In this document: positions 9,009 through 52,165 of the stretch, one piece after another
Layout: the number at the start of each line of letters is the position of its first letter
How positions within the stretch are numbered: the stretch's first letter is position 1
NCBI GenBank assembly: GCA_016209015.1
Contig: JACQWY010000045.1
Span: forward strand, 1-64,000
DNA from: Gammaproteobacteria bacterium
GTDB lineage: Bacteria > Pseudomonadota > Gammaproteobacteria > Ga0077536
Direction of reading: 5' to 3'
Length of the DNA stretch: 64,000 nucleotides
Position numbers and translations under genes: made by a program
Notes under the pieces: generated by a model
Database searches by the model: none
Seen by the model: only the letters and a program-made list of their open reading frames with translations
Told to the model about the DNA's origin: nothing

Positions 9009-10520
9009 TCAGAACTGGAAGTACAGGAACTCGCTGACGCGGTTCATGCTCGCGATCGCCGCCGCCGCGCCGAGCGCGCAGGCGACGCCCCAGGCGAAGC
9101 CGAGCCGCGGCCGGCGCACGTCGTCCGCGCCGTCGCGGGCGAGACCGGCGGCGATCTCCTGCGAGTTCGGCGCGAGGAACGCGATCGCGAGCAGGCCGGC
9201 GATCCAGGCGAGCGCGCCGAGACCGCCGAAGTGCTCGGGCGTGCCGAACGCGACGGCGTCGGCGAGCGCGGCGGGCAGCGCCGCCTGCCAGGCCGCGGGC
9301 AGCACGATGCCGTTCAGCCCCGCCATGCCTTCGAGGATCCGGAACGCCGCGCCGAAGCTCTCGGCGCGGAAGAACACCCAGCCGACGAGCACGGCGAGAA
9401 ACGTCAGCGCGCGCGCCGCGATGCGCCAGGACCGCGCGCGGCCGTCGCAGCCGAGCCGCGTGCGCAGCACTTCCCAGCCGTGGTTGATGACGAGGTAGGT
9501 GCCGTGCAGACCGCCCCACACCACGAACGTCCAGCCCGCGCCGTGCCACAGCCCGCCGAGCAGCATCGTCGTCATGAGGTTCACGTGGCGGCGCGCCGTG
9601 CCGTGACGGTTGCCGCCGAGCGGAACGTAGAGATAGTCGCGCAGGAAGCGCGAGAGCGTCATGTGCCAGCGCCGCCAGAAATCGACGATGCTCGTCGCCT
9701 TGTACGGCGAATCGAAGTTCAGCGGCAGCACGATGCCGAAGAGCCGCGAGCCGCCGATCGCCATGTCCGAATAGCCGGAGAAATCGAAGTAGAGCTGGAG
9801 CGCATAGGCGAGCGCCCCGCTCCAGGCCTCGAGCAGCGTCGGCGCGTCGCCGTGCGCAGCGGCGGCGAACACCGGCGAGGCGTAGACCGCGACGTTGTCC
9901 GCGAACAGCACTTTCTTCACGAGACCGATCGTGAAGATCGACAGCCCCAGCGCGACGTTCTCCGCAGAGATGCGATACGTCGCCGCGTGTGCGAACTGCG
10001 GCATCATCTCCTTGTGATGCAGGACGGGGCCGGCGATGAGGTGCGGGAAGTAGGTGACGAACAGCGCGTAGTGCACGAAGCGGTATTCCTTCACCTCGCC
10101 GCGATACGTATCGACGAGGAAGGCGATCTGCGTGAACGTGAAGAACGAGATGCCGAGCGGCAGCACGATCCGGCCGACGTCCCAGTGCGCACCCGCGACC
10201 GCGTTCGCGATGTCGAGGAAGAAGTTCGCGTATTTGAAGTAGCCGAGCAGCCCCAGATCGCCCGTTACCGCGAGGGCGAGCAGCCGGCGCCGCCGCTGCG
10301 GCGCCGCACTCTCGCCGATCGCCCGGCCGAACGCGAAATTGAACACTATCGAGCCGACGAGCAGCGGCACGTAGACCGGGTTCCACCAGCCGTAGAAGAA
10401 GATCGAGGCGAGCGCGAGCCAGGCGGCGGCGACGTGCTCGTCGAGACGCGCGAGCAGGAAGAACAGCGCGAACGTCAGCGGCAGGTAGGCGAGCAGGAAT
10501 TCGTAGGAATTGAACAGCAC
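9009..10520 (-). CDS. MBOAT-family membrane O-acyltransferase
   Basis: This 503-residue polytopic protein begins with the family's usual LFNSYEFLLAYLPLT start. It contains LPLGISFFTFTQIAFLVD, FPHLIAGPV and the catalytic-histidine segment LWHGAGWTF followed by GGLHG at about residues 325-340. Homologs such as AlgI and PatA acylate polysaccharides or peptidoglycan across the inner membrane. The GTG at 10520 is preferred: the upstream part of the longer frame (to 10634) is proline- and charge-rich and overlaps another gene's decayed end. It is coupled to the SGNH gene 3 nt downstream. The acetylated polymer is unknown. Confidence 0.88.
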   Translation of the reverse strand: MLFNSYEFLLAYLPLTFALFFLLARLDEHVAAAWLALASIFFYGWWNPVYVPLLVGSIVFNFAFGRAIGESAAPQRRRRLLALAVTGDLGLLGYFKYANFFLDIANAVAGAHWDVGRIVLPLGISFFTFTQIAFLVDTYRGEVKEYRFVHYALFVTYFPHLIAGPVLHHKEMMPQFAHAATYRISAENVALGLSIFTIGLVKKVLFADNVAVYASPVFAAAAHGDAPTLLEAWSGALAYALQLYFDFSGYSDMAIGGSRLFGIVLPLNFDSPYKATSIVDFWRRWHMTLSRFLRDYLYVPLGGNRHGTARRHVNLMTTMLLGGLWHGAGWTFVVWGGLHGTYLVINHGWEVLRTRLGCDGRARSWRIAARALTFLAVLVGWVFFRAESFGAAFRILEGMAGLNGIVLPAAWQAALPAALADAVAFGTPEHFGGLGALAWIAGLLAIAFLAPNSQEIAAGLARDGADDVRRPRLGFAWGVACALGAAAAIASMNRVSEFLYFQF

Positions 10521-10605
10521 GGCGTGGATGGCGGTCAGCGTCGTCCCTGGGTCTCGCGGGCTGGGCGGGTGATCGGACGCGGCGTCCGGCGCAGGTTCGA
10601 GGCCA

Positions 10606-10969
10606 TCATCGCGCGCCCGGCGCGTTGCGATCAACCCGGGCGCGGGATGCCTGCGCCGAAGCGGTGCCCGGGAAGACGACGTCGTCGAAGTTACCGGCGC
10701 CCTCGACGTAGCCCGTCATGACGATCGGCGCCGGGAATGTCGTCATCGTTCACGACCGCGCAGCACGTCGCCGGCGTGTCGACGAGACCCCGGCCCGTCA
10801 CGTTCGTCGCGTATTCGCGCACGGCGCCGTTCGCCGCGGAGACCGCGCCGCCGGCTGGCGTCGTCAGCGGACCGAGCACCGCCTCGTTGGCGTCAGCCGC
10901 GTGACGTGATGCGAACCGACCGCGAGCTCGGGCGGGCTCCTGCCTCGACCTTGCTCGCGCCCCGCGCAT
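10606..10969 (-). pseudogene. Probable frameshifted gene remnant
   Basis: The gap 10521-11014 holds no intact gene, but two abutting minus-strand frames look like pieces of one protein. The first reads ANEAVLGPLTTPAGGAV...NVTGRGLVDTPATCC up to about 10745. In another frame the segment from about 10743 to the stop at 10606 reads TTFPAPIVMTGYVEGAGNFDDVVFP. Both have natural amino-acid composition, unlike the Arg/Pro-rich shadows nearby. No start with a ribosome-binding site and no known family was recognised. It may be a decayed secreted protein; it could also be chance. Confidence 0.3.
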
Positions 10970-11014
10970 CGGAGTCGCCGGGGAGCGCCCTCGATCCCGG
11001 CTGCAGGCAAGCCC

Positions 11015-12247
11015 TCATTGGCCCAGCACGGTCACCACCGCCGAGGCTTCCTCCACACCCCACAGGCCGCCGCCGTTCTCCGCGATCGCGATGCGCGCGT
11101 TCGCGACCTGCCGGGGACCCGCTTCACCGCGGAGTTGCATCACGAGCTCGTGGATCTGCGCGAGGCCCGTCGCGCCGAGCGGATGACCGCGCGATTCGAG
11201 GCCGCCGGAAGGATTGACGGGAATGCGCCCGCCGAGCGTCGTCTCGCCGCGCGCGGCGGCCGGGCCGCCTTCGCCGCGCGGCACGAGGCCGAGATTCTCT
11301 GTGTTCAGCAGCTCGCCGAACGCCGTCGCATCGTGGACCTCGGCGAGGTCGACGTCCTGCGGGCCGAGCCCCGCGGCCGCGTACGCCGCCTCGGCGGTGA
11401 GCTTCGTGATATGCAGATCGAAGAAGCGATCGAGGCCGCGATCGACGCCCGAGCGCAGCTCGCAGGCGAGCAGCCGGATCGCGCGCGAGCGCGGCACGCC
11501 GAGACGCGCGAGCCCCCGCTCCGTGCAGACGATCGCCGCCGCGCAGCCGTCGGAATACGGCGAGCACATCGGCACGGTGAGCGGATAGGCGAGCGCGCGG
11601 CCGGCGAGCACTTCCTCGATGCTGAACTGCTTCTGGAACTGGCAGAGCGGATTCTCCGCGGAGTGGCGATGGTTCTTCGCGGCGATCGCCGCGAGCTGGC
11701 GCTGCGTCGTGCCGTATTCGCGCATGTGGCCGCGCGCCCAGCAGCCGTAGACGTCCATGAAGACGGAGCGCTCGCCCTGGGCCGGCGGTCCGTCGATGCC
11801 CCGGCCGAGCGCGCGCAGACGCTCGAACGTGCCTTCCACGTCCTCGACGTCCATGCCGCCCGCGAACACCTTGTCGCGGAGCGTCGTGTCGACCGTCGAG
11901 AGCTTCTCCGCGCCGACCGCGAGTGCGACGTCGGCCATGCCGGCTTTCAATTGCGCACACGCGAGCCACAGCGCGGACGACGCGGACGCGCAGCCGTTCT
12001 CGACGTTGACGATCGGCAGGCCCTGGAAACCGAGCGGACGCAAGGCGACCTGCCCCGGCACCGCGGTCTGCCCGTCGATGACGCTCTGGCCGAGATTCGA
12101 GAAGTACGCCGCCTGCACGTCGCCCGGCGTCGCGCCCGCGTCGGCGAGACAGGCGGTCACGGCTTCGCGCACCATCGTCTTGACGCTGCGATCGACGTAG
12201 AGCCCGAATTTCGTCATGCCGGTGCCGGCGAGGTAGAGCGTGGTCAT
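11015..12247 (-). CDS. Thiolase-fold protein of the SCP2-thiolase / lipid-transfer type
   Basis: The 410-residue protein has the thiolase fold with the nucleophile cysteine in NVENGCASASSAL at about residue 86 and the histidine in GHPLGATG at about residue 353. The second catalytic cysteine of classical thiolases (C-x-G-G-G) is replaced: the motif reads AENGGGLWG. This is the pattern of SCP2-type thiolases, which act in side-chain or ketone catabolism or as Claisen/retro-aldol components, often with a DUF35/OB partner. No DUF35 gene is seen beside it. It lies 362 nt downstream of the carboxylase-like operon on the same strand and could process its product after CoA activation, but this is inference. 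Confidence 0.8.
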   Translation of the reverse strand: MTTLYLAGTGMTKFGLYVDRSVKTMVREAVTACLADAGATPGDVQAAYFSNLGQSVIDGQTAVPGQVALRPLGFQGLPIVNVENGCASASSALWLACAQLKAGMADVALAVGAEKLSTVDTTLRDKVFAGGMDVEDVEGTFERLRALGRGIDGPPAQGERSVFMDVYGCWARGHMREYGTTQRQLAAIAAKNHRHSAENPLCQFQKQFSIEEVLAGRALAYPLTVPMCSPYSDGCAAAIVCTERGLARLGVPRSRAIRLLACELRSGVDRGLDRFFDLHITKLTAEAAYAAAGLGPQDVDLAEVHDATAFGELLNTENLGLVPRGEGGPAAARGETTLGGRIPVNPSGGLESRGHPLGATGLAQIHELVMQLRGEAGPRQVANARIAIAENGGGLWGVEEASAVVTVLGQ

Positions 12248-12273
12248 AAGCGTCCTCCATTTCGATCTTCATA

Positions 12274-12305
12274 GGATGCGCCGACGAAGGAGGCGCATCG
12301 ATCGC
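12274..12305 (+). repeat. Short dispersed repeat, copy A
   Basis: The core GCCGACGAAGGAGGCGCATC followed by GATCGC recurs at 28117-28153 in the same orientation and at 54081-54120 in the opposite one. All three copies are intergenic and begin with a GGAT block. Confidence 0.75.
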
Positions 12306-12339
12306 GGAGCGGGTCCAGTTCCCAGCCGACGCGCTTCAA

Positions 12340-12609
12340 TTCAAACAACGCCGTCGTCCCGGCGCAGGGACCCTCCCGGCGAAGGCCGGGACCGGGACCC
12401 GGTCATCACTCCGCGGCGCATTCGATCATCCGCGGGTCGACAAGCTGCTTGCAGCTTCACCCGCGCTCTGGATTGCGGTGTTGCCTTTGCTGTGCGCCGG
12501 GATCCCTTCGCTTCTGCGCTCTGGAAGCCGGGGTATGACCCGCGTGGATAACTCGCGATTCGTGCATTGCGTGTCGACCTGACTCGGCGGCGCGAGTTAC
12601 CCACACGCG
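12340..12609. repeat. Composite intergenic hairpin-rich sequence after the hyuB-like gene
   Basis: The 362-nt gap 12248-12609 has no supported gene. It contains a perfect hairpin, TCCCGGC/GCCGGGA with a 4-nt loop, at 12374-12391, of the CCCGGCGAAGGCCGGGA type common as dispersed repeats in related genomes. It also contains a long imperfect inverted repeat, CGCGTGGATAACTCGCG at 12541-12557 against CGCGAGTTACCCACACGCG at 12591-12609. The second lies directly after the hyuB-like stop codon and could stall or terminate transcription, though no T-run follows on the minus strand. Confidence 0.6.
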
Positions 12610-14871
12610 TCAGACCCCGGCGTCACCACCCGCGATCCTCGCCTCCAGCCTCGCGACCTTCGCCTCGAGCTCGCCGATCGCGACGTCTTTCGGATCCGGC
12701 ATCAGCACGAGCGGCAGATCGGCGGGCGTGCCCTTGCGGCCGTTCGCGTAGAGCGTGCCGAGATCTTCGCCCCAGCCGCCGAAATAGGGAATGCCCGGCG
12801 GCGGTGCGGCGCGATTCCACTCGCTGACGAATTCGTCGAACGGCCGGCCGCGCGCGAGGCGGGCGCGGCGTTCGTCCAGGCGCGCTACCGTCGTCGCCCC
12901 GGCGTCTATCGCGAGCGTCGCCGGATCGAGCACGACGCCGAAGATGCGGCGCGCGACCTCGAGCGAAAGGAGCCCCTCCTCCACGTCCTTCACCACGCGC
13001 GCCGGCTCCCGATCGAGCACGTCGCCGTAACCGCCGCCCGCGCCCTGCGAGACCATGTAGAGCTCGCCCTCGGTGCAGAGCTCGAAGGGAATCGCGCCGC
13101 GGTGCGTGCTGTACACCGCGCTTTCGAACGGGCGCCCGTTCATGAGCGTCGCGATGTCGGCGGTGAACAGCGCCGGGTTCTGCGCGACTTCCTCGAAGAC
13201 GTTCACCTGCTTGATCTTGCAGACGGGATACGCCGGCGAGCCGTAGCCGCCGAAGAGGCCCGGCACGGACGAGAACTTCGAGCCCGCCGCGATCGCCGAG
13301 AAGCCCCACAGCGGCGAGCCGCGCATCGCGGCGGAGGTCTGGTAGCCCGCGCCGCTGCGGTATTTGCCGAAGCCGAGGTTGTCGCGCGCGAAGCGCTTCG
13401 AGATGAGCTGCATGAACGGCAGATCGAGCTCCGTGAATTCCGTCTCGCCGACGTCCGTCATCGCCGCGAAGTTCGGCGTGAGACTGTGCTCCCCGTCGTC
13501 GTCCCAGTGCGCGCCGCCCGGCATGCCGTTCAGATCCGCGCAGAGATTGCCCGTCATCTCGAAGTTCTGGGTGATGCCGCCGTAGATGAACGTCACGGGC
13601 TGGTTGAACCAGGGTGCGATCACCTTGCCGAACTTCTCCGGCACCGGGAAGTAGAATTTCGCCGCCGCGATGTGCGTGAGCGTGATCCCTTTGAACAGCA
13701 CCTGCATGTTGAGCGCGGTCGGCACGTGGCGCGTCGCGTCGCAGAGGCTCTGCGGATCGGTGACGAAATCGATGGGCTCGAGCACGGCGTTCAGCCTCGG
13801 CAGATCCGGCCACACGAAGCACAGGAAGCACATCGAGAGCAGCACTTTCATGCTCGTCTGCGGCGCGTTCACGGGCCGGTTGCCGATCTGCGGCGAGCAG
13901 CCGCGGAAGTCGAACGTCATGCGCCCGTCGCGCACCGTCACCGCGAGCGGCATGCGCAGCAGCACGTCCTCGCGCATCGTCGAATCCATGAAAGCCTGGC
14001 CGCGGATCGTGCCCTCGGGCAGCGCGCGGATGCGGCGTTCGACTTCGGCCGCGACGTATTCGATGTTCTGGCGCAGGCTGCCGACGACCGCATCGACGCC
14101 ATAGGTCTCGATCGCGCGCAGCACGGCTTGCTCCAGCCGCTGGCAGGTCGCGTAGCGCGTCTTGATGTCCGCGCCGAGCATGCGCGGATCGCGCGTCGAG
14201 TTCTGCAGGAACGTCAGGAGATCCGTCCGGATCGCGTAGTTCTCCGCGAACTTGAGCGGCGGCATCTTGAGCCCTTCGTCGTAGGGCGATTCCATCGCCG
14301 GGCCCATGCCGCCCGGTTCCTTCGCGCCATCCTCGCCCTGGTGAAGGCCGCAGCACACCCAGGCGATGAGCTCGCCCGCATGGAAGACCGGCATGAAGGT
14401 CGAATGGTCGGGCGGATGCAGCCCGCCGTAGAACGCGTCGTTGAACAGGAACGCATCGCCTGCACCGACGCCGACCCGCGGGTCGTGCTCGTAGTACTTG
14501 CGCACGAAGCGGATCGGGTAGTGCAGGCAACTGCAGAAGCCGATCACGCCTTTCGTGGACGCCATCGCGTGATCGCCGGCGCCGGTGAAAATCGCCGTCG
14601 TCATGTCGCCGAAGCGCGCGGCGGGCGCGACGATCATGTTCTCGGTGATCTCGAAGTTGTCGTCGAGCGCACCCTGCAGGAAGCGGCGGATCTCGTCGTA
14701 GAGATATTCCTGGCCGGCTTCACTCAGCACGCGCGCTTCGCGGGCCGAGCGCGGCTTCATGCGGTGGTCGCGCATGATGCTCTCGTCCGGCGCGAGGAAG
14801 GGGATGTTCGCGGCAACGAAGGCCTCGAGGCGCGCGGCGTCGGCGGTGCGGTTATCTGTTGCGGATGACAT
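12610..14871 (-). CDS. Hydantoinase-B / acetone-acetophenone carboxylase subunit (HyuB-like)
   Basis: The 753-residue protein is a full-length HyuB-family subunit. It has the conserved block with HPPDHSTF, GLHQGEDGAKEPGGMGPAMES and a later glycine-rich RSGAGYQTSA and SQGAGGGYGDVLDREP. These resemble the carboxylase branch (acetone carboxylase alpha, acetophenone carboxylase) more than 5-oxoprolinase. In that branch this subunit joins a carboxyphosphate-type intermediate to the ketone enolate. The start at 14871 was chosen because GGAGGAA lies 8 nt upstream; it overlaps the end of the preceding HyuA-like gene by 20 nt, so the two are translationally linked. A short charged helix closes the C-terminus. 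The substrate is unknown. Confidence 0.85.
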   Translation of the reverse strand: MSSATDNRTADAARLEAFVAANIPFLAPDESIMRDHRMKPRSAREARVLSEAGQEYLYDEIRRFLQGALDDNFEITENMIVAPAARFGDMTTAIFTGAGDHAMASTKGVIGFCSCLHYPIRFVRKYYEHDPRVGVGAGDAFLFNDAFYGGLHPPDHSTFMPVFHAGELIAWVCCGLHQGEDGAKEPGGMGPAMESPYDEGLKMPPLKFAENYAIRTDLLTFLQNSTRDPRMLGADIKTRYATCQRLEQAVLRAIETYGVDAVVGSLRQNIEYVAAEVERRIRALPEGTIRGQAFMDSTMREDVLLRMPLAVTVRDGRMTFDFRGCSPQIGNRPVNAPQTSMKVLLSMCFLCFVWPDLPRLNAVLEPIDFVTDPQSLCDATRHVPTALNMQVLFKGITLTHIAAAKFYFPVPEKFGKVIAPWFNQPVTFIYGGITQNFEMTGNLCADLNGMPGGAHWDDDGEHSLTPNFAAMTDVGETEFTELDLPFMQLISKRFARDNLGFGKYRSGAGYQTSAAMRGSPLWGFSAIAAGSKFSSVPGLFGGYGSPAYPVCKIKQVNVFEEVAQNPALFTADIATLMNGRPFESAVYSTHRGAIPFELCTEGELYMVSQGAGGGYGDVLDREPARVVKDVEEGLLSLEVARRIFGVVLDPATLAIDAGATTVARLDERRARLARGRPFDEFVSEWNRAAPPPGIPYFGGWGEDLGTLYANGRKGTPADLPLVLMPDPKDVAIGELEAKVARLEARIAGGDAGV

Positions 14872-17011
14872 GGCCGTTCCTCCAGGCAATCCGGGTGAGC
14901 CAGGCGCCGCCCTGGGCGACGGCGTCGAGCCGCCAGCCGGGTTCGACGAGGTAAGTCGTCGCGCCGGTGTCGACGATCGCGGGGCCGGCGATCGCCGTGC
15001 CCGGAGTCAGCGCCTCCGGCCCGTAGACGGGCGTCGCGAGCGGCGCGTCGTGGCCGACGTAATGACACTCGCGGCTCGCACGCGGTGCGGGCGGCGGCAG
15101 CGGTTCCGCCTGCGGCTGCAGATCGCCGAACGCGACCGGCGTCGGCTCGACGTAGCTCGCGACGCGGTACGTCGAGATCCAGATGCCGGTCTCGGGCGCG
15201 GGTGCCGCCGCGCCATAGCGGCGTTCGTAGTCCGCGCGGTGCTTCTCGATGACGTCGAGCACGTCCGCACTCGATTCGAGGCGGTTGCGATCGAGCACGA
15301 CGGCGGTGTCGATCTTCTGCGCGCCGTAGCGGATATCGAGCTCGAGACGATGCCGGATGTGCTCCGCGGGCACGCCCTGGCGCAGCAGATCGCGCCGGCC
15401 GCGCTCCTCGAGCATCGCGACGACGTCGTTGAACGCCGCGTAGTCGTCGAAGACGTGCTGGCGGAGCTGGTTGTAGAGCGCGGTCGTGCGCGTGAACTCG
15501 TGGATGTGGAGCTGCGCCATGCCGCCCGCGCCGCACGCCGAGAACACGGACGAGAACGGCGGCACGAGCACGCGCGCGATGCCGGCCGCGTCCGCGATGC
15601 CGCAGCAGTGCAGCGGGCCGTTGCCGCCGTAGGCGAGAATCGTGAAATCCTGCGCGCGATAGCCGCGCGAGCCGAGCTCGGAGCTGATGCCGACCGCCAT
15701 GTCGGCGTCGACGCGCCGCTTCACGCGCTTTGCGACTTCGATCGTCTCGAGCGCGAGCGCGGCGGCGAGCTCGCGGAACGCGTTCGCCGCGCGCCGCGGC
15801 TGGAGCTTGAGCGAGCCGCCGGCATAGCCTTCCGGATCGAGATAGCCGAGCAGGAGATCCGCGTCCGTCACGGTCGGCTTCGCACCGCCGCGGCCGTAGC
15901 AGGCAGGGCCCGGATCCGAGCCCGCGCTGTCCGGCCCGATGCGCAGCGTCCGGTACATCGCGTCGTAACGCGCGATCGAGCCGCCGCCCGCGCCGAGCGA
16001 GGCGAGATGGACCATCGGCACGGTGACGAGCCAGCGATCGATCACGGGGTTGAAGTCGTAGTGCTTGAAGCCGCCCTCGACGACGATGCCGATGTCGAAG
16101 CTCGTGCCGCCCATGTCGGTCGACACGACGTTGCCGATGCCGGTCTGGAGGCCGAGGCTCTCCGCGGCCGCGATCCCGGCGACCGGACCGGAGTGCACGG
16201 TCTGCAGCGCGTCGGTGGAATTCAAGTGCGCCATGCCGCCCGTGTTGTGGACGAGCAGCATCGGCTTCGCATAACCCGAGTCGCGGAGATTGAGCTCGAG
16301 CGCGCTCATGGCGTGGAACATCGTCGCGTGCAGATAGGCGTCGATGACGGCGGACGTCGTGCGCACGTACTCCCCGCGCCGCCCGGAGATCGCCGCGGCC
16401 TCGACGACCGGGATCGCGCCGAGCGTGCTCGAGGGATATTCCTCGCGGAAGATGCGGCGGATGCGCCGCTCGTGCGCCGGATTGACCGTGCCGTTCACGC
16501 AGGAGATGACGAGCGCCTCGACGCCGAGCTCGACGAGCTCGCGGATTTTGAGCCTGAGATCGTCCTCGTCGATCGGCAGCACCACCTGCCCCAGATAGTC
16601 GATGCGCTCGCGCACGCCGCGCACGAGCGTCACCGGCACGAGCGGCGCCGGGCGCTTCGCACGCGTCAGATCCATCTGCGCCGCGACCGGCAGGCCCTCG
16701 CCGTAGCCGCGGCCGCGGCTGACCGCGAGCGTGCCCTCGAAGCCGTGCGTGATGAGCACGCCGACTTTCGGGCCCTTGCGCTCGATCAGCGCGTTCGTGC
16801 CGAGCGTCGTGGCGTAGCGCACGGAGTCGACGGCGGAGAGCACCGCGCCGCGGTCGAGCGCGAGCTGCGCGCAGATCTGGTCGAGCGCGCGATTGAAGCC
16901 GAGGGCCAGATTGCCGTGCGTCGTCAGCGCTTTCGCCTGCAACGCGCGCGCGCCCCAGCTCACGAAGCAGTCCGTGAACGTGCCGCCGATGTCGACCGCG
17001 ATGCGCTTCAC
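14852..17011 (-). CDS. Hydantoinase-A-like ATPase subunit, second paralog (HyuA-2)
   Basis: This 719-residue protein starts with VKRIAVDIGGTFTD, the phosphate-1 loop of the ASKHA ATPase fold. It continues with the phosphate-2 motif TDMGGTSFDIG at about residue 290 and the glycine motif GAGGGSIARYD at about 328. All nucleotide-binding motifs look intact, so it should bind and hydrolyse ATP. The GTG start at 17011 overlaps the stop of the small subunit gene by 4 nt (GTGA). A second, clearly different HyuA-like gene lies two genes upstream. Two ATPase paralogs plus a HyuB and a small zinc subunit match the acetophenone carboxylase core. The 5-oxoprolinase/hydantoinase alternative is less likely because of the small subunit. 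Confidence 0.87.
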   Translation of the reverse strand: MKRIAVDIGGTFTDCFVSWGARALQAKALTTHGNLALGFNRALDQICAQLALDRGAVLSAVDSVRYATTLGTNALIERKGPKVGVLITHGFEGTLAVSRGRGYGEGLPVAAQMDLTRAKRPAPLVPVTLVRGVRERIDYLGQVVLPIDEDDLRLKIRELVELGVEALVISCVNGTVNPAHERRIRRIFREEYPSSTLGAIPVVEAAAISGRRGEYVRTTSAVIDAYLHATMFHAMSALELNLRDSGYAKPMLLVHNTGGMAHLNSTDALQTVHSGPVAGIAAAESLGLQTGIGNVVSTDMGGTSFDIGIVVEGGFKHYDFNPVIDRWLVTVPMVHLASLGAGGGSIARYDAMYRTLRIGPDSAGSDPGPACYGRGGAKPTVTDADLLLGYLDPEGYAGGSLKLQPRRAANAFRELAAALALETIEVAKRVKRRVDADMAVGISSELGSRGYRAQDFTILAYGGNGPLHCCGIADAAGIARVLVPPFSSVFSACGAGGMAQLHIHEFTRTTALYNQLRQHVFDDYAAFNDVVAMLEERGRRDLLRQGVPAEHIRHRLELDIRYGAQKIDTAVVLDRNRLESSADVLDVIEKHRADYERRYGAAAPAPETGIWISTYRVASYVEPTPVAFGDLQPQAEPLPPPAPRASRECHYVGHDAPLATPVYGPEALTPGTAIAGPAIVDTGATTYLVEPGWRLDAVAQGGAWLTRIAWRNGHVIRNR

Positions 17012-17451
17012 GGCTGCACCTCGTGGTCGTGATCGTGACGATGCGCGTGGCCGAAAGCCGCACGCGGATCGGGCACGGTGAGATCCGGCGCCTTCGCGAG
17101 CGCGCCTTCCGCGACGAATTCCGCGGCGCGGCGTTTCAGGGAGTCGATGTCGAACTCGATGTCGTGCAGCGGCGGATGACCCGGCACGGTGTACTCCGCC
17201 TCGACGAGCGAGCCGCAGCACGGGCAGTAGTACTCGAGGATGCGGCACCACGCCGGATCGGGCGCGAACGTATAGGCATAGCGCGCCGGATCGAGCTGCG
17301 GGGCGTGGATCTCGCGCGGATCGCGATCGTAGACCAGGAGCCCGCGCTTGTAGTTCTCGCGCGCCGGACCGAGCACGGCATTGCAGTTGCGGCACTCCCA
17401 GCGCTCGGCGTCGAGATCGATGCGCAGGTATTCCGTGATCACGACTCTCAT
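17008..17451 (-). CDS. Small four-cysteine (zinc) subunit of a ketone carboxylase-like complex
   Basis: The 147-residue product has two cysteine pairs, CRNC at about residue 20 and CPCC at about residue 74, separated by PARENYKRGLLVYDRDP. This layout matches the gamma/small subunits of acetone and acetophenone carboxylases, which bind zinc. The C-terminus ends in a histidine-rich tail (GHAHRHDHDHEVQP), which could bind metal. The ATG at 17451 overlaps the HyuA-1 stop (ATGA) and its stop overlaps the HyuA-2 GTG, so it is embedded in one transcription unit. Its presence is the main argument for carboxylase rather than hydantoinase function. Confidence 0.8.
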   Translation of the reverse strand: MRVVITEYLRIDLDAERWECRNCNAVLGPARENYKRGLLVYDRDPREIHAPQLDPARYAYTFAPDPAWCRILEYYCPCCGSLVEAEYTVPGHPPLHDIEFDIDSLKRRAAEFVAEGALAKAPDLTVPDPRAAFGHAHRHDHDHEVQP

Positions 17452-19358
17452 GCCTCGTCTCCTGCTTCGAGCAACAGATCACCGCCGTCGAGGACGGTGA
17501 ACCGCCAGCCCGCGACGAGATGACACAGAAAGTAATCGGACTGCAGCACGGCCGGCCCCGCCGCGCGCATGCCTGGCGCGAGCGCGGCGTGACGATAGAT
17601 CGGGATGCGCTCGAGGCTGCCGTCCCTGGTGACGACCGTGCGCTCGCCGCACGGCGTCGCGGCTTCCGCCGCGGCGGCCGCGGTGCCGGGTGTCGCGTCG
17701 GACACCGGCCTCCCGGCCGACACGCGGAGCTGGATGGATTCCGCCGCGGCGGGCCAGCTTGCGGGCTCGAGCGGAACGTCGACTGCGGCATCGCCCGTGA
17801 TGGCCCGCGCGGTGATCGCGCAGTCCGCGATCGCGACGCCCTCGCCCGCCAGGTCGCGTGCGGCGGTCGCGAGCGCCGCGGTGAGCACGGCCTCGCGTGC
17901 GGCGGGCGCGAGGCCCGCGAGGGTCAGCTCGTAGTCCTGCCCGAGATGCGCATAGCGCACGCCGTAGGCGCTGAACAGCGCCGCGAGCTTCGGCACGAAC
18001 ACGCGCCGGATGCCGAGCGCGGCCGCGACCTCGCAGATCGCGAGCGGCCCGGCCCCGCCGAACGCCATGAGCACGGTGTCGCGGCGCGGCGGCTCGTGGG
18101 CGCGGATGCCGGCCGCGAGGCTCGCGATCCAGCGCTCGCAGATCAGGTGCGCGGCGGCCGGCGTCGCGAGGCCGAGCGGCGTGCCGATTTCGTTCGCGAC
18201 CGCCGCCTCGGCGCGCGCCCGATCGAGCGGCCGCTCGATGCCGCTGAAGGAATCGGGATCGATGAGACCGCGCGCGACGCAGGCGTCGGTGATCGTCGCG
18301 CGCGTGCCGCCGAGCCCGAAGCACGCGGGGCCCGGTGCCGCACCCACGCTCTCGGGACCGACGTGCACGATGCCCTCGGCGACGCGGACGATCGAGCCGC
18401 CGCCGATGCCGAGGCTCTCGATGCGCGGCAGCTCGAGCGAGGTCGCGACCCCTTCGACGCGCCCGCGGAGCTCGGCCGGCACCGCGCCCGCGGCGACGGT
18501 GCTCACGTCGGAAGTCGTGCCGCCGACGTCGACGGCGATCACGTGCCCGAAACCGCGGCGCAGGGCCGTGGCGCGCACCGCCTCGAGCCCGCCGCGCGGC
18601 CCGGAGCTGTACGTCCTGATCGCGATGGTCTTCGCGACCTTCGCCGCGCCGCCGTCGTTGCGATAGATGCGGAACGCCGCGGGGCTGCGGTAGTTGCGCA
18701 GGCGCTTCTGGGCGTTGAACAGGAAGCGCTCCATCGGCGGATGCAGGAAGGCGTTCAGGAGCGCCGTCCAGATCCGGCGCGGCACTTCGGCGTCGCCGCC
18801 CGTCTCGTGTGCCACCGCGACCGGCACGGTGCCGAGGTTGTGCGGCGGGAAGCGGTTCTCGTAATGCGCGACGAACTCCTGCTCGCGCGCGACGTAGTCC
18901 GGGCCCGCGCAGCAGACGAGGATGCGGCTCACGCCCTGCTCGGCGAGCACGTTCGCGGCCGCGATCACCGCCTCCTCGCCGACTTCGCCGGCCACGTCGA
19001 GCGCGACGCAGCGCGTGCCGACGAGCGCGTCGAAGAGCGCGGCGCGGGCGCCGTCCGGGGCGAGCGTCGCGCGTGGGACGGCCGCATCGAGCACGAGTCC
19101 GAGCCGCGGTCCCTTGCGTTCGACGAGCGCGTTCGTGCCCTGGGTCGTCGAATAACGGATCGTCGCCGTCTCGCGCAGCAGCCGCTCCACGTCGTCCTCG
19201 CCGTAGAGCCCGCGCGCGGCCTTCGCGAGACCGTCGAAGAAGCACTGCGAGAGATCGAAGGGTGTGGTGAGCGTCTTCGCCGCGAACACGTCCGCGCCGT
19301 CGAAGACGCAGACGTCGGTCAGCGTACCGCCGTTGTCGATGCAGATTTCCTTCAGCAA
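17448..19358 (-). CDS. Hydantoinase-A-like ATPase subunit, first paralog (HyuA-1)
   Basis: The 636-residue protein has DNGGTLTDVCVFDG at the N-terminus, VDVGGTTSDVSTV at about residue 285 and GIGGGSIVRVAEG at about 320, the three nucleotide-binding motifs of the HyuA branch of the ASKHA fold. It is about 80 residues shorter than its paralog and diverged from it. A TTG at 19358 is the most likely start: it directly precedes the conserved LKEICIDNGG, and no ATG or GTG lies in frame for over 50 codons upstream. The long open frame to 19727 would run through the probable operator and into tetR. It heads the carboxylase-like operon, about 67 nt downstream of a palindrome at 19425. Confidence 0.83.
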   Translation of the reverse strand: MLKEICIDNGGTLTDVCVFDGADVFAAKTLTTPFDLSQCFFDGLAKAARGLYGEDDVERLLRETATIRYSTTQGTNALVERKGPRLGLVLDAAVPRATLAPDGARAALFDALVGTRCVALDVAGEVGEEAVIAAANVLAEQGVSRILVCCAGPDYVAREQEFVAHYENRFPPHNLGTVPVAVAHETGGDAEVPRRIWTALLNAFLHPPMERFLFNAQKRLRNYRSPAAFRIYRNDGGAAKVAKTIAIRTYSSGPRGGLEAVRATALRRGFGHVIAVDVGGTTSDVSTVAAGAVPAELRGRVEGVATSLELPRIESLGIGGGSIVRVAEGIVHVGPESVGAAPGPACFGLGGTRATITDACVARGLIDPDSFSGIERPLDRARAEAAVANEIGTPLGLATPAAAHLICERWIASLAAGIRAHEPPRRDTVLMAFGGAGPLAICEVAAALGIRRVFVPKLAALFSAYGVRYAHLGQDYELTLAGLAPAAREAVLTAALATAARDLAGEGVAIADCAITARAITGDAAVDVPLEPASWPAAAESIQLRVSAGRPVSDATPGTAAAAAEAATPCGERTVVTRDGSLERIPIYRHAALAPGMRAAGPAVLQSDYFLCHLVAGWRFTVLDGGDLLLEAGDEA

Positions 19359-19424
19359 GGCCGCGCGCCCCCGCCCATCGCCGGGCGCCCCGAGCGTCGG
19401 GCGTGCGATGGAACATAGATTGGT

Positions 19425-19444
19425 ATTTAGATACGAGTCTAAAT
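19425..19444. promoter_or_regulatory. Probable TetR operator and promoter region of the carboxylase-like operon
   Basis: A 20-bp palindrome, ATTTAGA-6 nt-TCTAAAT, stands in an AT-rich island between tetR and HyuA-1; two more symmetric pairs lie inside the spacer. On the minus strand a TTGACT hexamer lies just upstream (near 19455), making a promoter overlapped by the operator plausible. The -10 element is not clear. The site would let the adjacent TetR protein control the operon. Confidence 0.55.
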
Positions 19445-19495
19445 TTGGAACGCGCCGGCAGTCAACCGGAACCGCGCCGGCCGGACCGTCGTGGT

Positions 19496-20284
19496 CTACT
19501 TCGCGGGCTTGCTGCGCGGTGCGCGCGGCGCCGCACGCACGGCGCTCGCGCGGCCTTCCGCCGCGATGCGCAGCGCGGCGCGGGCGGCCCGCGCCCCGGG
19601 CGCGGCGCCGGGTGCGATGAGGCGCAGGAAGCTGTGATGGCGCGGCAACTGGCGGCGCGTGTCCTTGATGCGCGCCTCGAGGCGCTTGCGGCCGGCCTCG
19701 TCGGCGAAGCCGAGCATGATGCGGCACGTGCCGTACACGACCTGGGCCTGGAAGCCGGGATCGTCGAGATCGCCGTGCACCCAGAGATTCACGCAGCCGA
19801 CGAAGTGCAGCATGAGGAGGCGCGCGAGATCGTCACGCTCGCACTCCTCCGCCGGCAGGCGCTTCATCCTCACCGCGGCCTCGAGCGAATGCCGCCAGAA
19901 CGTGAGCGAGCGATGCATGAACCACGGCCGGTGCAGCTCGTCGAGCGTGCCGAGGAAGACGGCGAGCAGCTCGCGGAGCACGACGGAGTCGGCGGCGAAC
20001 ACTTCCGCGCCGAAAGCCGCGGCTTCGACCGGATGCTCGAGGGGATCCGTCGCGCGATACTTGATGACGCCGATGAACAAATCGTCGAGCAGGCGGTTCA
20101 GGAGCGCGTAGAGGACACCGTCGCGCGAACCGAGGAGATTGTAGGGCGTGGCCGGCGCGACACCCGCGCGGCGGGCGACGTCCTTCATCGTGAAGCCGAC
20201 GCCGTTCGATTCGCGGATGAGCGTGCGCGCCGCGTCGAGGATGCGATCGAGCCGGGCCGCGGACTGGCGCTTCACCGTGCTCAT
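19496..20284 (-). CDS. TetR-family transcriptional regulator
   Basis: The 262-residue protein starts with a TetR-type DNA-binding domain. ILDAARTLIRE is followed by the helix-turn-helix FTMKDVARRAGVAPATPYNLL at about residues 32-52 (here slightly longer than other motifs quoted). The C-terminal ligand domain is long and ends in a basic Ala/Arg tail. It lies directly upstream of the carboxylase-like operon on the same strand, with the palindrome at 19425 between them. It is a good candidate repressor of that operon, released by the substrate or a CoA thioester. Family membership is clear; the ligand is unknown. Confidence 0.85.
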   Translation of the reverse strand: MSTVKRQSAARLDRILDAARTLIRESNGVGFTMKDVARRAGVAPATPYNLLGSRDGVLYALLNRLLDDLFIGVIKYRATDPLEHPVEAAAFGAEVFAADSVVLRELLAVFLGTLDELHRPWFMHRSLTFWRHSLEAAVRMKRLPAEECERDDLARLLMLHFVGCVNLWVHGDLDDPGFQAQVVYGTCRIMLGFADEAGRKRLEARIKDTRRQLPRHHSFLRLIAPGAAPGARAARAALRIAAEGRASAVRAAPRAPRSKPAK

Positions 20285-20294
20285 GCGTGCTGCG

Positions 20295-20957
20295 TCAGCG
20301 GGCGATCTCGTCCGCGCCGAGCGGCCCCGCGCCGACGGAATCGACGCCGTCGAAGAACTCCACCTCGCCGGTCTCGAGCGAATACTCCGCGCCGACGATG
20401 CGCAGGCCCTCGCTGCGGATGAGCTGCTCGAGGATCTCCGAGCCGTAACGCAGATGGCTCGCCGCGACGCTCACGTTGAAGCGTACGGCATGACGCACGA
20501 GCGCGGGCATCTCCTTGGCCAGCTCGCTCTTGAGCAGGCCCTCGACCGACGGCCGCACGCGGTCGACGATCGAGCGCAGATTGCGCGACTGGTTCTCCGC
20601 CGGGCGCTGCAGCTCCTCGATCGTCGCGAGGATCGCGCCGCACTGCGAATGACCGAGCACGACCACGAGGCGCGTGCCGAAACGCGAAGCGGCGAACTCG
20701 ACGCTGCCGATCTGCGAAGGCGCGACGATGTTGCCGGCGACGCGGATCACGAACAGATCGCCGAGGCCCTGATCGAACACGAGCTCGGCGGGCACGCGCG
20801 CGTCCGAGCAGCCGAGCACGATGGCGAACGGCTGCTGCTCGCTCACGAGCTCGACGCGGCGCGCGGCGCTCACTGCGGACGGATGATCGCGCGTGCTGGC
20901 GACGAAACGGCGGTTGCCCTCCGTGAGGCGTTCGAGGGCGGCTTGGGCTGAAATCAT
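20295..20957 (-). CDS. Beta-class carbonic anhydrase
   Basis: The 220-residue protein has the zinc-ligand motifs of beta-carbonic anhydrases: CSDARV at about residues 50-55, containing the catalytic Asp-Arg dyad, and GHSQCG at about residues 102-107. It interconverts carbon dioxide and bicarbonate in the cytoplasm. It lies only 10 nt upstream of tetR on the same strand. A bicarbonate supply next to an ATP-dependent carboxylase operon would make sense, because the described carboxylases of this family use bicarbonate; linkage by regulation is inferred. Confidence 0.92.
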   Translation of the reverse strand: MISAQAALERLTEGNRRFVASTRDHPSAVSAARRVELVSEQQPFAIVLGCSDARVPAELVFDQGLGDLFVIRVAGNIVAPSQIGSVEFAASRFGTRLVVVLGHSQCGAILATIEELQRPAENQSRNLRSIVDRVRPSVEGLLKSELAKEMPALVRHAVRFNVSVAASHLRYGSEILEQLIRSEGLRIVGAEYSLETGEVEFFDGVDSVGAGPLGADEIAR

Positions 20958-21430
20958 CGGAATCTCTGCGAGTCTGTCGGTGGAATCTACGGCACCTCGA
21001 CCGGTGTCCGCGGCTGGCGACAGGGTAGCAGCGAATGACGCCGCCGGGGAGCAGCGACCCGCTCAGGGCACGACGGCGACCGGCGCGCGCCCGCCGACGG
21101 TCGTGACGAGACAACCGTGCTGCGCGAGCGCCCGATAGAGCCGGCCCTCGACATCGGCACACGTCGCGAACACGGGTCGCAACGCCACCGGCCGGTCGGC
21201 AAGAAGCGGCGTTGCTGCCGACCTCCGATGAGCGCTGGCCTACGCCGCGGTTCACGGCCGCACGACCCTGTGTCGCGGGAAGCTCTGCATTCGTTCAGAG
21301 CGTCCTCGAACGAAGAGCAAGCTTCGCCGGCCGGACTCGCGCTCCATCGCGCTAGCGGTGGTGAATATCGCCCGGCGAGCGGCTGCAGGCATCGGTGGCG
21401 CCGCTGCCCGACCGGCTCTGAGCGCGCGGA
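20958..21430. other. Intergenic stretch with one weak short frame
   Basis: No complete gene is supported in these 473 nt. A minus-strand frame at 21063-21188 starts with GTG and encodes 41 residues of natural composition (RPVFATCADVEGRLYRALAQ and onward), but it has no ribosome-binding site and no recognised relatives. It may be the end of a decayed gene. Confidence 0.3.
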
Positions 21431-22519
21431 CTACTCCACTTCCGCGAGCACGCCGAACGCGACGAGCTTGCGGACGAGGCCCGGCGCGATGCGCAGGCCG
21501 CGCTCGGCCTCGAGGGCGGCGAGGACTTCCGTGGTCGGCCGGCCATCGAAGCGATGCAGTACGTCCATGAGCGTCCGCGGCACGCTCAGCGGATCGAGCG
21601 GGCTGTAGCTCACGACCTGCATGGCGTCCCCCGAGTGGCCGACGATCGACACGGGGCGCGTGACGACGCGTGCGGGGATGTGCGGAGAGCGCATGGCGGA
21701 TTGCGCGTCCGTGAGCAGCGTGAGCCTGATCTCGAGCTCCGGCCCGCCGAGCGCACGCACGCGCGCGGCGTCGAGGCCGTCGACGACCGCGGAAGCCGCG
21801 CGATAGAACTCGAATTCACGATCCACCCAGTCGCCCCACAGCCCGGCATACGCCGCCGGCGCGACACGCTCGTCGAGATCCGCGTCGTCGATCGCGCTCA
21901 CGCCGGACGACGGGCGCGGTGCGAACAAGGCGGCGAGCGTGCGCGGCGGCAGCCCGAGCGCATGCACGACATGCCGCGCCAGGGCCGTTTCGACGGTGAG
22001 CAGCGCGTCCTGCACGCGGCGCCAGAACGCATAGCCGAGCGCGCCGCGCTCGTACTTGCAGAACCACGTGACGCACGTCGATTCGCGATGACGCCAGATG
22101 CCGCAGCGGCCGTCGTCGAGATGATGGGGACAGCGCATGCTCTCGGCGCGGCCGAAGCCGTCCCGCCCCTGCACGTAGAGCAGCTCGTAGCGGCGCGATC
22201 GCGTGAGGCCGAGCGGCGTCACGCCGACGCGCGCGCGGATCCGCGCCTCGAGCGTCGCGCGGCCCGCCGCCGCGTCGGACGCCGTGTCGCAGAGCACGTC
22301 GCCGACGAGGAAGTTCGACAGGACCGGCACGTAGGTGCAGCACTTCGTCACCGGCGAATACGTACCCATGCCGGGCGCGACCGCCGTCGGGTCGCGCGGA
22401 CACATCGCGCAGTCGTCGCAGGTCGCGCGCGGCTCGCTGCCGGGCAGCGTGTCGAGCCAGGCACCGAGCCATCCGGCGAAACGGCGCGGCAGGGCAATCG
22501 GGGCGGCGGAAGTGTCCAT
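21431..22519 (-). CDS. Cysteine-rich protein of unknown function
   Basis: The 362-residue product was not assigned to a named family. Its N-terminal half holds a striking cysteine set: CDDCAMC at about residue 39, KCC at about 62, a single C at about 81, CPHHLDDGRCGIWRHRESTC at about 132-151 and WFCKYERG next to it. Such spacing suggests an iron-sulfur cluster or zinc site, loosely like YkgJ-type proteins. The C-terminal half is cysteine-free and helical, ending in a PqqD-like-sized segment (TTEVLAALEAERGLRI) whose relationship is uncertain. The ATG at 22519 was chosen over an upstream one because AAGGGA precedes it. It stands alone, divergent from a small membrane protein. Confidence 0.7.
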   Translation of the reverse strand: MDTSAAPIALPRRFAGWLGAWLDTLPGSEPRATCDDCAMCPRDPTAVAPGMGTYSPVTKCCTYVPVLSNFLVGDVLCDTASDAAAGRATLEARIRARVGVTPLGLTRSRRYELLYVQGRDGFGRAESMRCPHHLDDGRCGIWRHRESTCVTWFCKYERGALGYAFWRRVQDALLTVETALARHVVHALGLPPRTLAALFAPRPSSGVSAIDDADLDERVAPAAYAGLWGDWVDREFEFYRAASAVVDGLDAARVRALGGPELEIRLTLLTDAQSAMRSPHIPARVVTRPVSIVGHSGDAMQVVSYSPLDPLSVPRTLMDVLHRFDGRPTTEVLAALEAERGLRIAPGLVRKLVAFGVLAEVE

Positions 22520-22707
22520 GCAATCGATCCCTTCGATGATGGGCGCAGTATCGCACCGCGGCCGGAGAAACGCTGCGGCCATTTACCTCATGTGCGCCAT
22601 GGTTTACGCGCAGCGCCGCTTGTCACGTGCCGCAGCGGCCAGCATGCTGGCACCGACGCCGCCGGGACGAGCCCATTGCTGCCATCCGTTCCGGCGAGAG
22701 GACTCCC

Positions 22708-50774: not shown

Positions 50775-52165
50775 CAGTGTTCGACGCGCGGTGCTTCGGC
50801 GTCCGCGAACACTTCGAGCATCGCTGCGGCCTTGTCGAGGCTCTCCTGGTACTCGGCCTCGAGCTCCGAATCCATCACGATGCCGCCCCCCGCCCAGCAG
50901 AACATGCGCCCGCCCTGGCACACGAGCGTGCGGATCGCGATGTTCACGTCCATGCCGCCGCCGAAATCGAGATAGCCGATCGCGCCGCAGTAGACGGTGC
51001 GGCGATACGGCTCGAGCTCCTCGATGATCTGCATCGCGCGCAGCTTCGGCGCGCCGGTGATCGACCCCCCGGGGAAGCAGCCGCGCAGCGCATCGACAGC
51101 GGTCGTGTCGCCCTTCAGGCGGCCGCGCACGGTGCTGACGAGGTGATGGACCTTCGCGAAGCTCTCGATGCGGAACAGCGCCGGCACCTCGACGCTGCCG
51201 ATGGCGCAGGTCTTGCCGAGATCGTTACGCAGCAGATCGACGATCATGAGGTTCTCGGCGCGGTCCTTGAGGCTCGACCGGAGCTCGGCGGCGAGCGCGG
51301 CGTCGCGTGCGGGATCTGCGTCGCGCGGCCGCGTGCCCTTGATCGGTTTCGTTTCGACGACGCCGCCGCTCACTTTCAGGAACCGCTCGGGCGACGAGCT
51401 GAGGACCGCCGCGCCGGGATAGGCGAGATACGCCGAGAACGGCGCGGGATTGCGATTGCGCAGACGTTGATACGCGTCCCAGGGATCGCCGCGCGCGGCT
51501 GCCGAGAAACGCTGCGTGAAATTCACCTGATAGCAATCACCCTCGACGATGTAGCGCTTGATGCGTGCGAAGCCGCGCGCATAGTCCGCGAAAGTGATTT
51601 CGGCCTGCACCGCGGACGTGACCTGGAAACACGAGGCGAAGACCGCGGGCGTCACCGCATCCTGCGCGTTCCACGCCGCCGTGATCGCGGCGAGATCCGC
51701 ACGGCAGTCCGCATCGACGGCGAGCCAGGTACGGCGCGTCTCGTGATCGACGACGATCGCCCAGAGATAGATGCCGACCGCGAGATCCGGGATGTCGATG
51801 TCGCGGCGCGCGCGCGGCGCGAGACGCTCGATGCGCCGCCCGAGATCGTAGGCGAAATAGCCGAGCGCGCCGCCGGCGAACGGCAGCTCGCAAGGCGCAC
51901 GCGCGCGTTCGCCGAGCAGACCCGCGAGGAGCGTGAAGGGATCTTCCGGGCTCGTCGATCGGCGGCCGTCGCGCGTGATGACCGTCGTCTCGCCCACGGT
52001 CTCCAGCGTCATGACGGGATCGGCCGCGACGACGTCGTAGCGTCCCGCGCTGCGCACGTCGGCGCAACTGTCGAGGAACACGAACCAGGGCCGCTCGGCG
52101 AAGCGCGCCGCACGGCGCGCGCTGTCGCGGCCATAGTCGAGCGGCAGCAGCCGCGGCGCGCTCAT
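50774..52165 (-). CDS. pabB: Aminodeoxychorismate synthase component I
   Basis: The 463-residue chorismate-binding enzyme has KPIKGTRPRD. The lysine in PIKGT separates PabB from anthranilate synthase, which has PIAGT. GGSITGAPK and CWAGGGIVMDSE follow. It makes 4-amino-4-deoxychorismate, the precursor of p-aminobenzoate, which goes into folate and also into H4MPT. No pabA or pabC lies nearby. The ATG at 52165 overlaps the stop of the upstream gene by 4 nt, tying it to the C1-cofactor genes. Confidence 0.92.
   Translation of the reverse strand: MSAPRLLPLDYGRDSARRAARFAERPWFVFLDSCADVRSAGRYDVVAADPVMTLETVGETTVITRDGRRSTSPEDPFTLLAGLLGERARAPCELPFAGGALGYFAYDLGRRIERLAPRARRDIDIPDLAVGIYLWAIVVDHETRRTWLAVDADCRADLAAITAAWNAQDAVTPAVFASCFQVTSAVQAEITFADYARGFARIKRYIVEGDCYQVNFTQRFSAAARGDPWDAYQRLRNRNPAPFSAYLAYPGAAVLSSSPERFLKVSGGVVETKPIKGTRPRDADPARDAALAAELRSSLKDRAENLMIVDLLRNDLGKTCAIGSVEVPALFRIESFAKVHHLVSTVRGRLKGDTTAVDALRGCFPGGSITGAPKLRAMQIIEELEPYRRTVYCGAIGYLDFGGGMDVNIAIRTLVCQGGRMFCWAGGGIVMDSELEAEYQESLDKAAAMLEVFADAEAPRVEH

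Follow-up and report, generated by a model that had tools for sequence, protein, structure and literature searches.

A four-gene operon on the minus strand of a 64,000-nucleotide stretch of DNA from a draft genome labelled Gammaproteobacteria bacterium (contig JACQWY010000045.1 of assembly GCA_016209015.1; this whole stretch is called the window) encodes an alpha-alpha'-beta-gamma core of the acetophenone carboxylase (Apc) type, a placement supported outside both the acetone carboxylase clade and the hydantoinase/lactamase clade. The explanation that we find fairly probable as a whole is that this is the core of a ketone carboxylase distinct from acetophenone carboxylase, that it forms a beta-keto acid, and that its fifth subunit, epsilon, comes in trans from a gene on contig 24 of the same genome. 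The four genes, in gene order, are as follows:

17448-19358, minus strand: alpha', HyuA type and ApcA-like, the proposed bicarbonate kinase subunit; 636 amino acids, TTG start; PF01968 and PF05378.
17008-17451, minus strand: gamma, zinc-finger-like, with four family-conserved cysteines; 147 amino acids; PF08882.
14852-17011, minus strand: alpha, HyuA type and ApcC-like, the proposed ketone kinase subunit; 719 amino acids, GTG start.
12610-14871, minus strand: beta, HyuB type and ApcD-like, which keeps an H..D stretch and a downstream H; 753 amino acids; PF02538.

All four frames are intact, and adjacent genes overlap by 4 nucleotides (alpha'/gamma), 4 nucleotides (gamma/alpha) and 20 nucleotides (alpha/beta); the genes were called with a GC-frame script of our own, and not all starts are certain. 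An original prediction, made from the letters alone, had described this set of two HyuA-type ATPases, a four-cysteine small subunit and a HyuB-type subunit, and had stated that both ATPases retain their nucleotide motifs; both descriptions hold. Specifically, the three motifs named in the Apc structure paper (PMC5214803) are intact in both HyuA proteins: PHOSPHATE1 (DNGGTLTD and DIGGTFTD), PHOSPHATE2 (DVGGT and DMGGT) and ADENOSINE (GAAPGP and GSDPGP). In gamma, cysteines 20, 23, 76 and 79 are each kept in at least 82 of 83 aligned gammas, and two further cysteines, 69 and 78, are found in 49 and 2 of the 83, respectively. Beta has GGLHPPD at position 149 and AWVCCGLH at 170.

When the subunits were compared with solved structures by phmmer, the best match of each was its own counterpart in 5L9W, the core of the Aromatoleum acetophenone carboxylase: 5l9w_b for alpha' (245 bits, versus 203 for Apc alpha and 115 for acetone carboxylase), 5l9w_C for gamma (117.5 bits, versus 39 for the acetone carboxylase gamma), 5l9w_B for alpha (493 bits, versus 286 for acetone carboxylase and 273 for 6yra_A) and 5l9w_A for beta (229 bits, versus 134 for acetone carboxylase). 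This bears out the earlier proposal of an Apc-like composition of unknown substrate. Likewise, the Apc branch has been described as having the gene order alpha', gamma, alpha, beta and an R/KERiDsxG fingerprint in alpha only (PMC5214803), and the window operon shows both features: RERIDYLG is present in alpha, and the pattern [RK]ERxDxxG is absent from alpha'. Across the related loci and the window, the fingerprint occurs in 70 of 76 alphas and in none of 83 alpha' proteins. The published apcABCD order that had been proposed for the window thus stands, with the naming of the subunits corrected to alpha', gamma, alpha, beta. In a tree of 51 rows (quick mode, with long branches and with support only from the Shimodaira-Hasegawa-like approximate likelihood ratio test, SH-aLRT), the window alpha' clusters with ApcA at an SH-aLRT support of 94; the window alpha falls in neither the acetone carboxylase clade nor the caprolactamase/hydantoinase clade, both of which sit on long branches.

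Comparison with the better-known relatives sharpens this placement. Acetone carboxylase (AcxABC; 5M45, 5SVB) has homologues of HyuA, HyuB and gamma and shares the H..D stretch and downstream H of beta, but it has no alpha', a different gene order and a separate clade; as an identity for the window core it was rejected on composition, which is not that of acxABC, and on the tree. Caprolactamase and N-methylhydantoinase (6YRA, 7HK5) are similar in their HyuA and HyuB homologues and nucleotide motifs, but they lack gamma and alpha', as described in PMC5214803, and form a separate clade; an assignment to the 5-oxoprolinases, hydantoinases or caprolactamases was rejected because gamma is present, unlike in the two-gene hydAB arrangement, and because the window lies outside the hydantoinase clade. 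Apc of Aromatoleum aromaticum (apcABCDE; 5L9W, 9FOU) matches in gene order, in its two nucleotide-binding paralogues, in its four-cysteine gamma and in its alpha fingerprint. The window core differs from it in its predicted pocket, in an aspartate (D281) replacing a lysine in alpha', in its longer beta, in the lack of a local epsilon gene and in scores far under the curated cut-offs. All four subunits fall short of the NCBIfam Apc equivalog cut-offs (287 against 1250 for ApcA, 141 against 250 for ApcB, 515 against 1500 for ApcC on alpha, and 250 against 1500 for beta), with CapA scoring 389 on alpha compared with the 515 of ApcC. Furthermore, contig 11 of the same genome (locus L026) carries a much closer relative of Apc, which adjoins 5L9W in the tree and has apcABCD-like genes in a row with an ApcE homologue (301 bits, under the 450 cut-off), a CobW GTPase and a thiolase. 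On these two grounds we judge that the window core is not acetophenone carboxylase itself.

The genome from which the window comes (G000) is rich in such genes, with 36 HyuA, 33 HyuB and 14 gamma matches, including a few fragments and one gamma domain that is fused to HyuB. Among 144 genomes searched, it has the most gamma matches (the next has 7); within the window's family, 34 of 36 genomes have a gamma match, as against none of 108 others, which, so far as the listing shows, represent the remainder of the class. Six G000 loci have the tandem alpha'-gamma-alpha-beta arrangement (C1, C11, C18, which is the window, C24, C39 and C40). Four of them, C1, C18, C24 and C40, form one sub-branch, their alpha' proteins scoring 1052 to 1108 bits against a model (A1) built from these same four, versus 410 for C11 and 460 for C39; the window alpha' is 39-48% identical to its three sub-branch paralogues. 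A scan of named genomes with the window alpha' found 322 relatives, and the best 80 of these, many cut by contig ends, were taken as the locus set. By record title, their hosts are mostly Pseudomonadota (Solimonas, Nevskia, Burkholderia, Xanthobacter, Zoogloea and others), together with Rhodococcus and Gordonia (Actinomycetota) and single metagenome-assembled genomes labelled Cytophagaceae and Stygiobacter. 

This sub-branch is a coherent variant of the Apc kind, distinguished by a pocket signature and a fifth subunit of its own and by frequent neighbours that activate beta-keto acids. Seven residues have been named as lining the predicted ketone pocket of Apc alpha (PMC5214803, in which residue 345 is Leu in a figure legend and Thr in the text), and the sequence of 5l9w_B holds all seven. 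The window alpha has T, V, H, P, I, H, L where Apc has L, F, N, P, I, Q, T, so that five of the seven positions differ, and its two histidines fall at Apc alpha positions 282 and 344. Across the sub-branch the pattern is T (76/76), V/I/M, H (76/76), P (76/76), I/V, H (75/76) and L (76/76), the sole exception at the second histidine being a tyrosine in the C24 paralogue. In beta, a loose G..H..D pattern can be found at some place in all 76 HyuB proteins nearest the window beta, a set that includes a few acetone-carboxylase-type and lone HyuB genes; the stricter GG.H..D is found in 37, and the rest, in the examples printed, have mostly GN.H..D. In phmmer alignments the H..D stretch and the downstream H align with the metal-ligand stretch of acetone carboxylase, whose manganese ligands are His150, Asp153, His175 and Glu89 (PMC5543143); by analogy, these residues of the window beta may bind metal.

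What is new here is that a fifth gene belongs to the sub-branch itself. It usually follows beta, and its product has a predicted fold like that of ApcE and uroporphyrinogen decarboxylase (UROD). Most relatives have a gene for about 270 amino acids downstream of beta, overlapping it by 4 nucleotides in 18 of the first 42 found; in other relatives it lies behind a short-chain dehydrogenase gene. Of the 80 loci, 57 count as complete, having every core gene called and over 2.5 kb of sequence left on the right-hand side, and 52 of these 57 contain it; the other 23 were excluded from the count. Because the profile was built from 42 members, of which 41 came from the counted loci and one (L027) from G000, this fraction measures how often the gene lies within the locus and is not an independent discovery. 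The five loci without it (L042, L043, L048, L066 and L073) come from four genomes, all of which carry a copy outside these loci. A Pfam scan of nine members found no family over its cut-off. The AlphaFold model of the contig 24 protein (L027; mean predicted local distance difference test score 92.2) retrieved ApcE (9FOU) first by E-value in Foldseek (1e-7, 17% identity), followed by uroporphyrinogen decarboxylases. On the basis of predicted fold, position and co-occurrence, we name this gene the putative epsilon of the sub-branch; the likeness to ApcE is one of the sub-branch and not of any gene in the window.

Indeed, no epsilon homologue was detected in the 64-kb window, where the best match had an E-value of 1.1 (hmmsearch --max over open stretches of at least 25 amino acids), and at these permissive settings a broken copy was rejected as well. 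A gene for 312 amino acids at 21431-22369 (minus strand), considered as a hidden epsilon, was also rejected, having no Pfam match and an hhalign E-value of 0.58; its product has an N-terminal cysteine-rich stretch, and it lies upstream of a carbonic anhydrase gene. G000 has a single sub-branch epsilon, adjoining the C24 core on contig 24, for four sub-branch cores. None was detected beside the C1 and C40 cores, and a weak match on contig 55 (15 bits, E 0.03) was taken as chance because it falls in a 320-residue open reading frame that has no Pfam match and runs opposite the called genes. The earlier remark that no fifth subunit is visible nearby is therefore correct for the whole window, and the fifth subunit has been described as not being in every operon of the Apc branch (PMC5214803).

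The same pattern extends to other genomes. All of the 47 genomes searched for having a window-type alpha', a set that includes G000 and leaves out the genome of L118, carry epsilon, a count conditional on their having been chosen for that alpha'. With cores counted as alpha' matches above 700 bits, 37 of these genomes are single-core and the other 10 hold between two and four cores, for totals of 63 cores and 53 epsilons when two split matches, in G165 and G181, are taken as one each. Epsilons are fewer than cores in six of the 10 multi-core genomes (cores to epsilons 4:1 in G000, 3:1 in G144, 2:1 in G145, G173 and G178, and 4:2 in G189) and equal in the other four. One cultured multi-core relative, Panacagrimonas perspica, has two cores and one epsilon. 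The single-core genomes G146 and G147 have epsilon on the contig that carries the core, at distances of roughly 240 and 420 kb. The 700-bit line omits two adjacent partial alpha' matches in G144 (contig 37, 77259-79069; 441 and 349 bits), which resemble one frameshifted or split gene and could represent an additional copy that is broken or mis-assembled. Within the window's family of 36 genomes, 12 have both alpha' and epsilon, 2 have alpha' only, 2 have epsilon only (G009 and G011) and 20 have neither (Fisher p 5.6e-6, and 5.5e-4 in the 23 genomes at least 90% complete, in both cases uncorrected for kinship); these counts include partial alpha' matches above 500 bits (G002, G034), a partial epsilon of 85 bits in G009 and an epsilon with one internal stop in G011. 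Taken together, the lack of a local gene, the one copy for four cores, the 47 of 47 genomes and the six of 10 suggest that epsilon may be supplied to the window core in trans, and they point to a subunit kept per genome rather than per operon. Such a supply fits what has been reported for ApcE, which is lost from the core when the enzyme is purified and has to be supplied again before there is activity (PMC4729919).

Several observations weigh against the explanation as we have framed it. The fork that would tie the window-type alpha to ApcC is left without resolution in the tree, and the window beta is longer than that of Apc (753 versus 684 amino acids) and nearer that of acetone carboxylase (776), so that it agrees poorly with an approximate published rule for beta length; related betas span 675-774 amino acids, with a median of 758. 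The residues assigned to the bicarbonate pocket of Apc alpha', E248 and K281 (PMC5214803), are not conserved: the first is S in 78 of 79 sub-branch proteins and G in one, and the second is D in all 79, so that the sub-branch keeps the common aspartate without the Apc lysine. As for the fifth protein, its model resembles UROD a little more than it does ApcE, both by Foldseek template modeling score and by VIA-align (Z 20.8 versus 18.5). Its hhalign match to ApcE is marginal (E 2.7e-4, probability 41%), only one of 29 members matches the ApcE model (E 3.8e-5), and a profile search of the PDB with the fifth gene did not find ApcE. Finally, two family genomes, G002 and G030, carry alpha' with no epsilon detected. 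The assemblies searched are drafts, and an epsilon of greater divergence could escape detection in them. We know of no activity for any member of the sub-branch, and the literature searches turned up none.

G002 and G030, together with the lack of epsilon in the window and beside C1 and C40, would also suit a core that works without epsilon or has another protein in its place, and acetone carboxylase is described as having none (PMC5214803). Such independence sits poorly with the retention of at least one epsilon in all 47 selected genomes and in 12 of the 14 family genomes with alpha', and with L040, the closest relative among the best 80, which keeps its epsilon two further genes beyond beta; we regard it as unlikely. 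For the ketone carboxylase supplied in trans, a further step can be proposed only tentatively, as something possible that we would stop short of calling probable: that epsilon is an exchangeable part, one gene serving several cores of differing ketone specificity, with the window core one of four such in G000. The sub-branch makes both trans action and the interchangeability of epsilon between cores directly testable, and if the idea is true, a small UROD-related fold would serve as a reusable module in the biotin-free addition of CO2 to ketones. PMC5214803 states that a single Apc-branch enzyme had been characterised and describes the epsilon subunit as elusive. A literature search that covered few subscription journals, and mainly titles and the openings of abstracts, found no substrate for the sub-branch and no description of epsilon sharing. 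In Rhodococcus ruber Chol-4, a cluster annotated as acetophenone carboxylase (apc1-4 with fisR) is described, with no activity given in the portion of PMC6498646 concerned. The R. ruber NBRC 15591 locus (L106) belongs to the window's sub-branch and likewise has a Fis-type regulator, and it carries the fifth gene, whereas the Chol-4 cluster is annotated with four apc genes.

It is informative to consider the reaction in light of the genes that surround these operons. Acetoacetate-CoA ligase homologues are found in 19 of the 57 complete loci (a raw frequency, with no baseline from unrelated loci), and the two that were scanned exceed the curated cut-offs (910 against 639 and 794 against 521; 891 against 639 and 808 against 521). 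CobW-type GTPases, possibly metal chaperones, are present in 11 of the 57. L040, whose alpha', gamma, alpha and beta are 53, 67, 69 and 67% identical to those of the window, has in one row the core, a thiolase, an AMP-forming CoA ligase and an epsilon that has diverged. The apc genes of Aromatoleum adjoin one for a benzoylacetate-CoA ligase, and the pathway there is described as ending with a thiolase not yet known (PMC4729919). With ligase and thiolase as neighbours, a beta-keto acid would be expected as the product, to be activated and then cleaved. The window core thus probably attaches CO2 to a ketone. By analogy with Apc, alpha would phosphorylate the ketone enolate and alpha' would phosphorylate bicarbonate, and the activated substrates would be joined in the complex, perhaps at a metal site of beta as in acetone carboxylase, to give the beta-keto acid in a biotin-free, ATP-dependent process. 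A CoA ligase encoded elsewhere would make the thioester and the downstream thiolase would cleave it, with the UROD-fold epsilon that turnover would need coming from the single sub-branch gene on contig 24.

An ATP-dependent amidohydrolase of the lactamase or hydantoinase type, carrying gamma and alpha' incidentally, would belong to the same HyuA/HyuB superfamily and would account for the CapA score on alpha, and binding-site consensus sequences are said not to tell substrate class (PMC5214803); nevertheless ApcC scores higher on the same protein, and the tree, gamma, the gene order and the ligase and thiolase neighbours favor the ketone carboxylase branch, which leaves this alternative quite improbable. 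It is no more credible that the operon is a redundant or decaying duplicate of another G000 carboxylase with no distinct function: the six Apc-type loci and 36 HyuA matches of the genome, and the lack of a local epsilon or CoA ligase, could be read that way, but the four frames and their motifs are intact, the alpha' is well diverged from its sub-branch paralogues and the operon is preceded by a candidate operator. That this is a second acetophenone carboxylase, with acetophenone itself as its substrate, would fit the architecture seen here but is very improbable given the closer Apc relative with its ApcE homologue on contig 11, the low equivalog scores and the five altered pocket positions.

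The features that flank the ketone carboxylase operon in the window are these:

11015-12247, minus strand: thiolase of the SCP2/lipid-transfer type, 362 nucleotides after beta; 410 amino acids; PF22691, PF00108; NCBIfam PRK08256 at 310 bits (cut-off 436).
19425-19444, no strand assigned: candidate TetR operator, the perfect inverted repeat ATTTAGA-6-TCTAAAT, in the 137-nucleotide gap between tetR and alpha'.
19496-20284, minus strand: TetR-family regulator; 262 amino acids; PF00440 at 24.1 bits (cut-off 24).
20295-20957, minus strand: beta-class carbonic anhydrase with CSDAR and HSQCGA; 220 amino acids; PF00484 at 126 bits.

Profile matches confirm the TetR regulator, carbonic anhydrase and thiolase that had been called from the letters, although the self-contained pathway proposed along with them is not supported: among the neighbours scanned the thiolase is the only expected pathway gene, with no CoA ligase or epsilon found near the operon, and a search of the 80 related loci (E 1e-15, 60% coverage; many loci cut by contig ends) gave no homologue of either the carbonic anhydrase or the TetR protein. 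The carbonic anhydrase was rejected as a conserved pathway partner on this last result. Another TetR-family gene lies beside the C24 operon. The link of the thiolase to the operon is better supported, similar thiolases being found downstream of two other Apc-type operons of G000 and of the L040 operon. The window protein contains NGCASASS and GHPLGATG, which we take to be catalytic motifs, and it is likely the beta-ketoacyl-CoA thiolase of the pathway. The candidate operator is the only match in the window at up to three mismatches. An AT-rich 7-bp repeat arose in 0 of 20,000 mononucleotide shuffles of the gap, by an AT-rich criterion set post hoc, and any 7-bp repeat arose in 1,934 of 20,000. 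The operator overlaps the sole promoter-like site in 10500-22700, where such sites are at chance level (1 found, 0.9 expected).

Other loci show further variation around these genes. On contig 39 of G000 (C39, L028), an Apc-type core with a 265-residue insert gene between gamma and alpha is followed by a CoA ligase and a thiolase, so that the pathway is nearly complete in one place; the insert gene is a weak ApcE match (20 bits, and 35.8 bits in another search) and gave no alignment with the fifth-gene profile. In L044 and similar Solimonas and Nevskia loci, the Apc-type operon lies among DUF1329, DUF1302, SDR, DUF3237 and acetoacetate-CoA ligase genes, a neighbourhood that suggests breakdown of a hydrophobic compound. 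On contig 65 of G000 (L030, 6720-9002, minus strand), a HyuB-type protein with a C-terminal gamma-like domain (PF08882, 31 bits) adjoins a HyuA gene and is a possible beta-gamma fusion variant; weak gamma matches inside open reading frames of about 750-815 amino acids recur in many genomes of the window's family. Lone HyuB genes on contigs 23 (L038) and 54 (L039), of 757 and 763 amino acids and 45% identical to the window beta, have no alpha, alpha' or gamma called beside them, and short adjacent partial matches to PF01968 and PF02538 on contig 44 (58603-59848) appear to be HyuA/HyuB remnants. A third HyuA-fold protein of the window itself, at 52162-53208 on the minus strand, is a tetrahydromethanopterin-linked C1 transfer protein (TIGR03123, 314 bits, cut-off 244) and is not part of the carboxylase.

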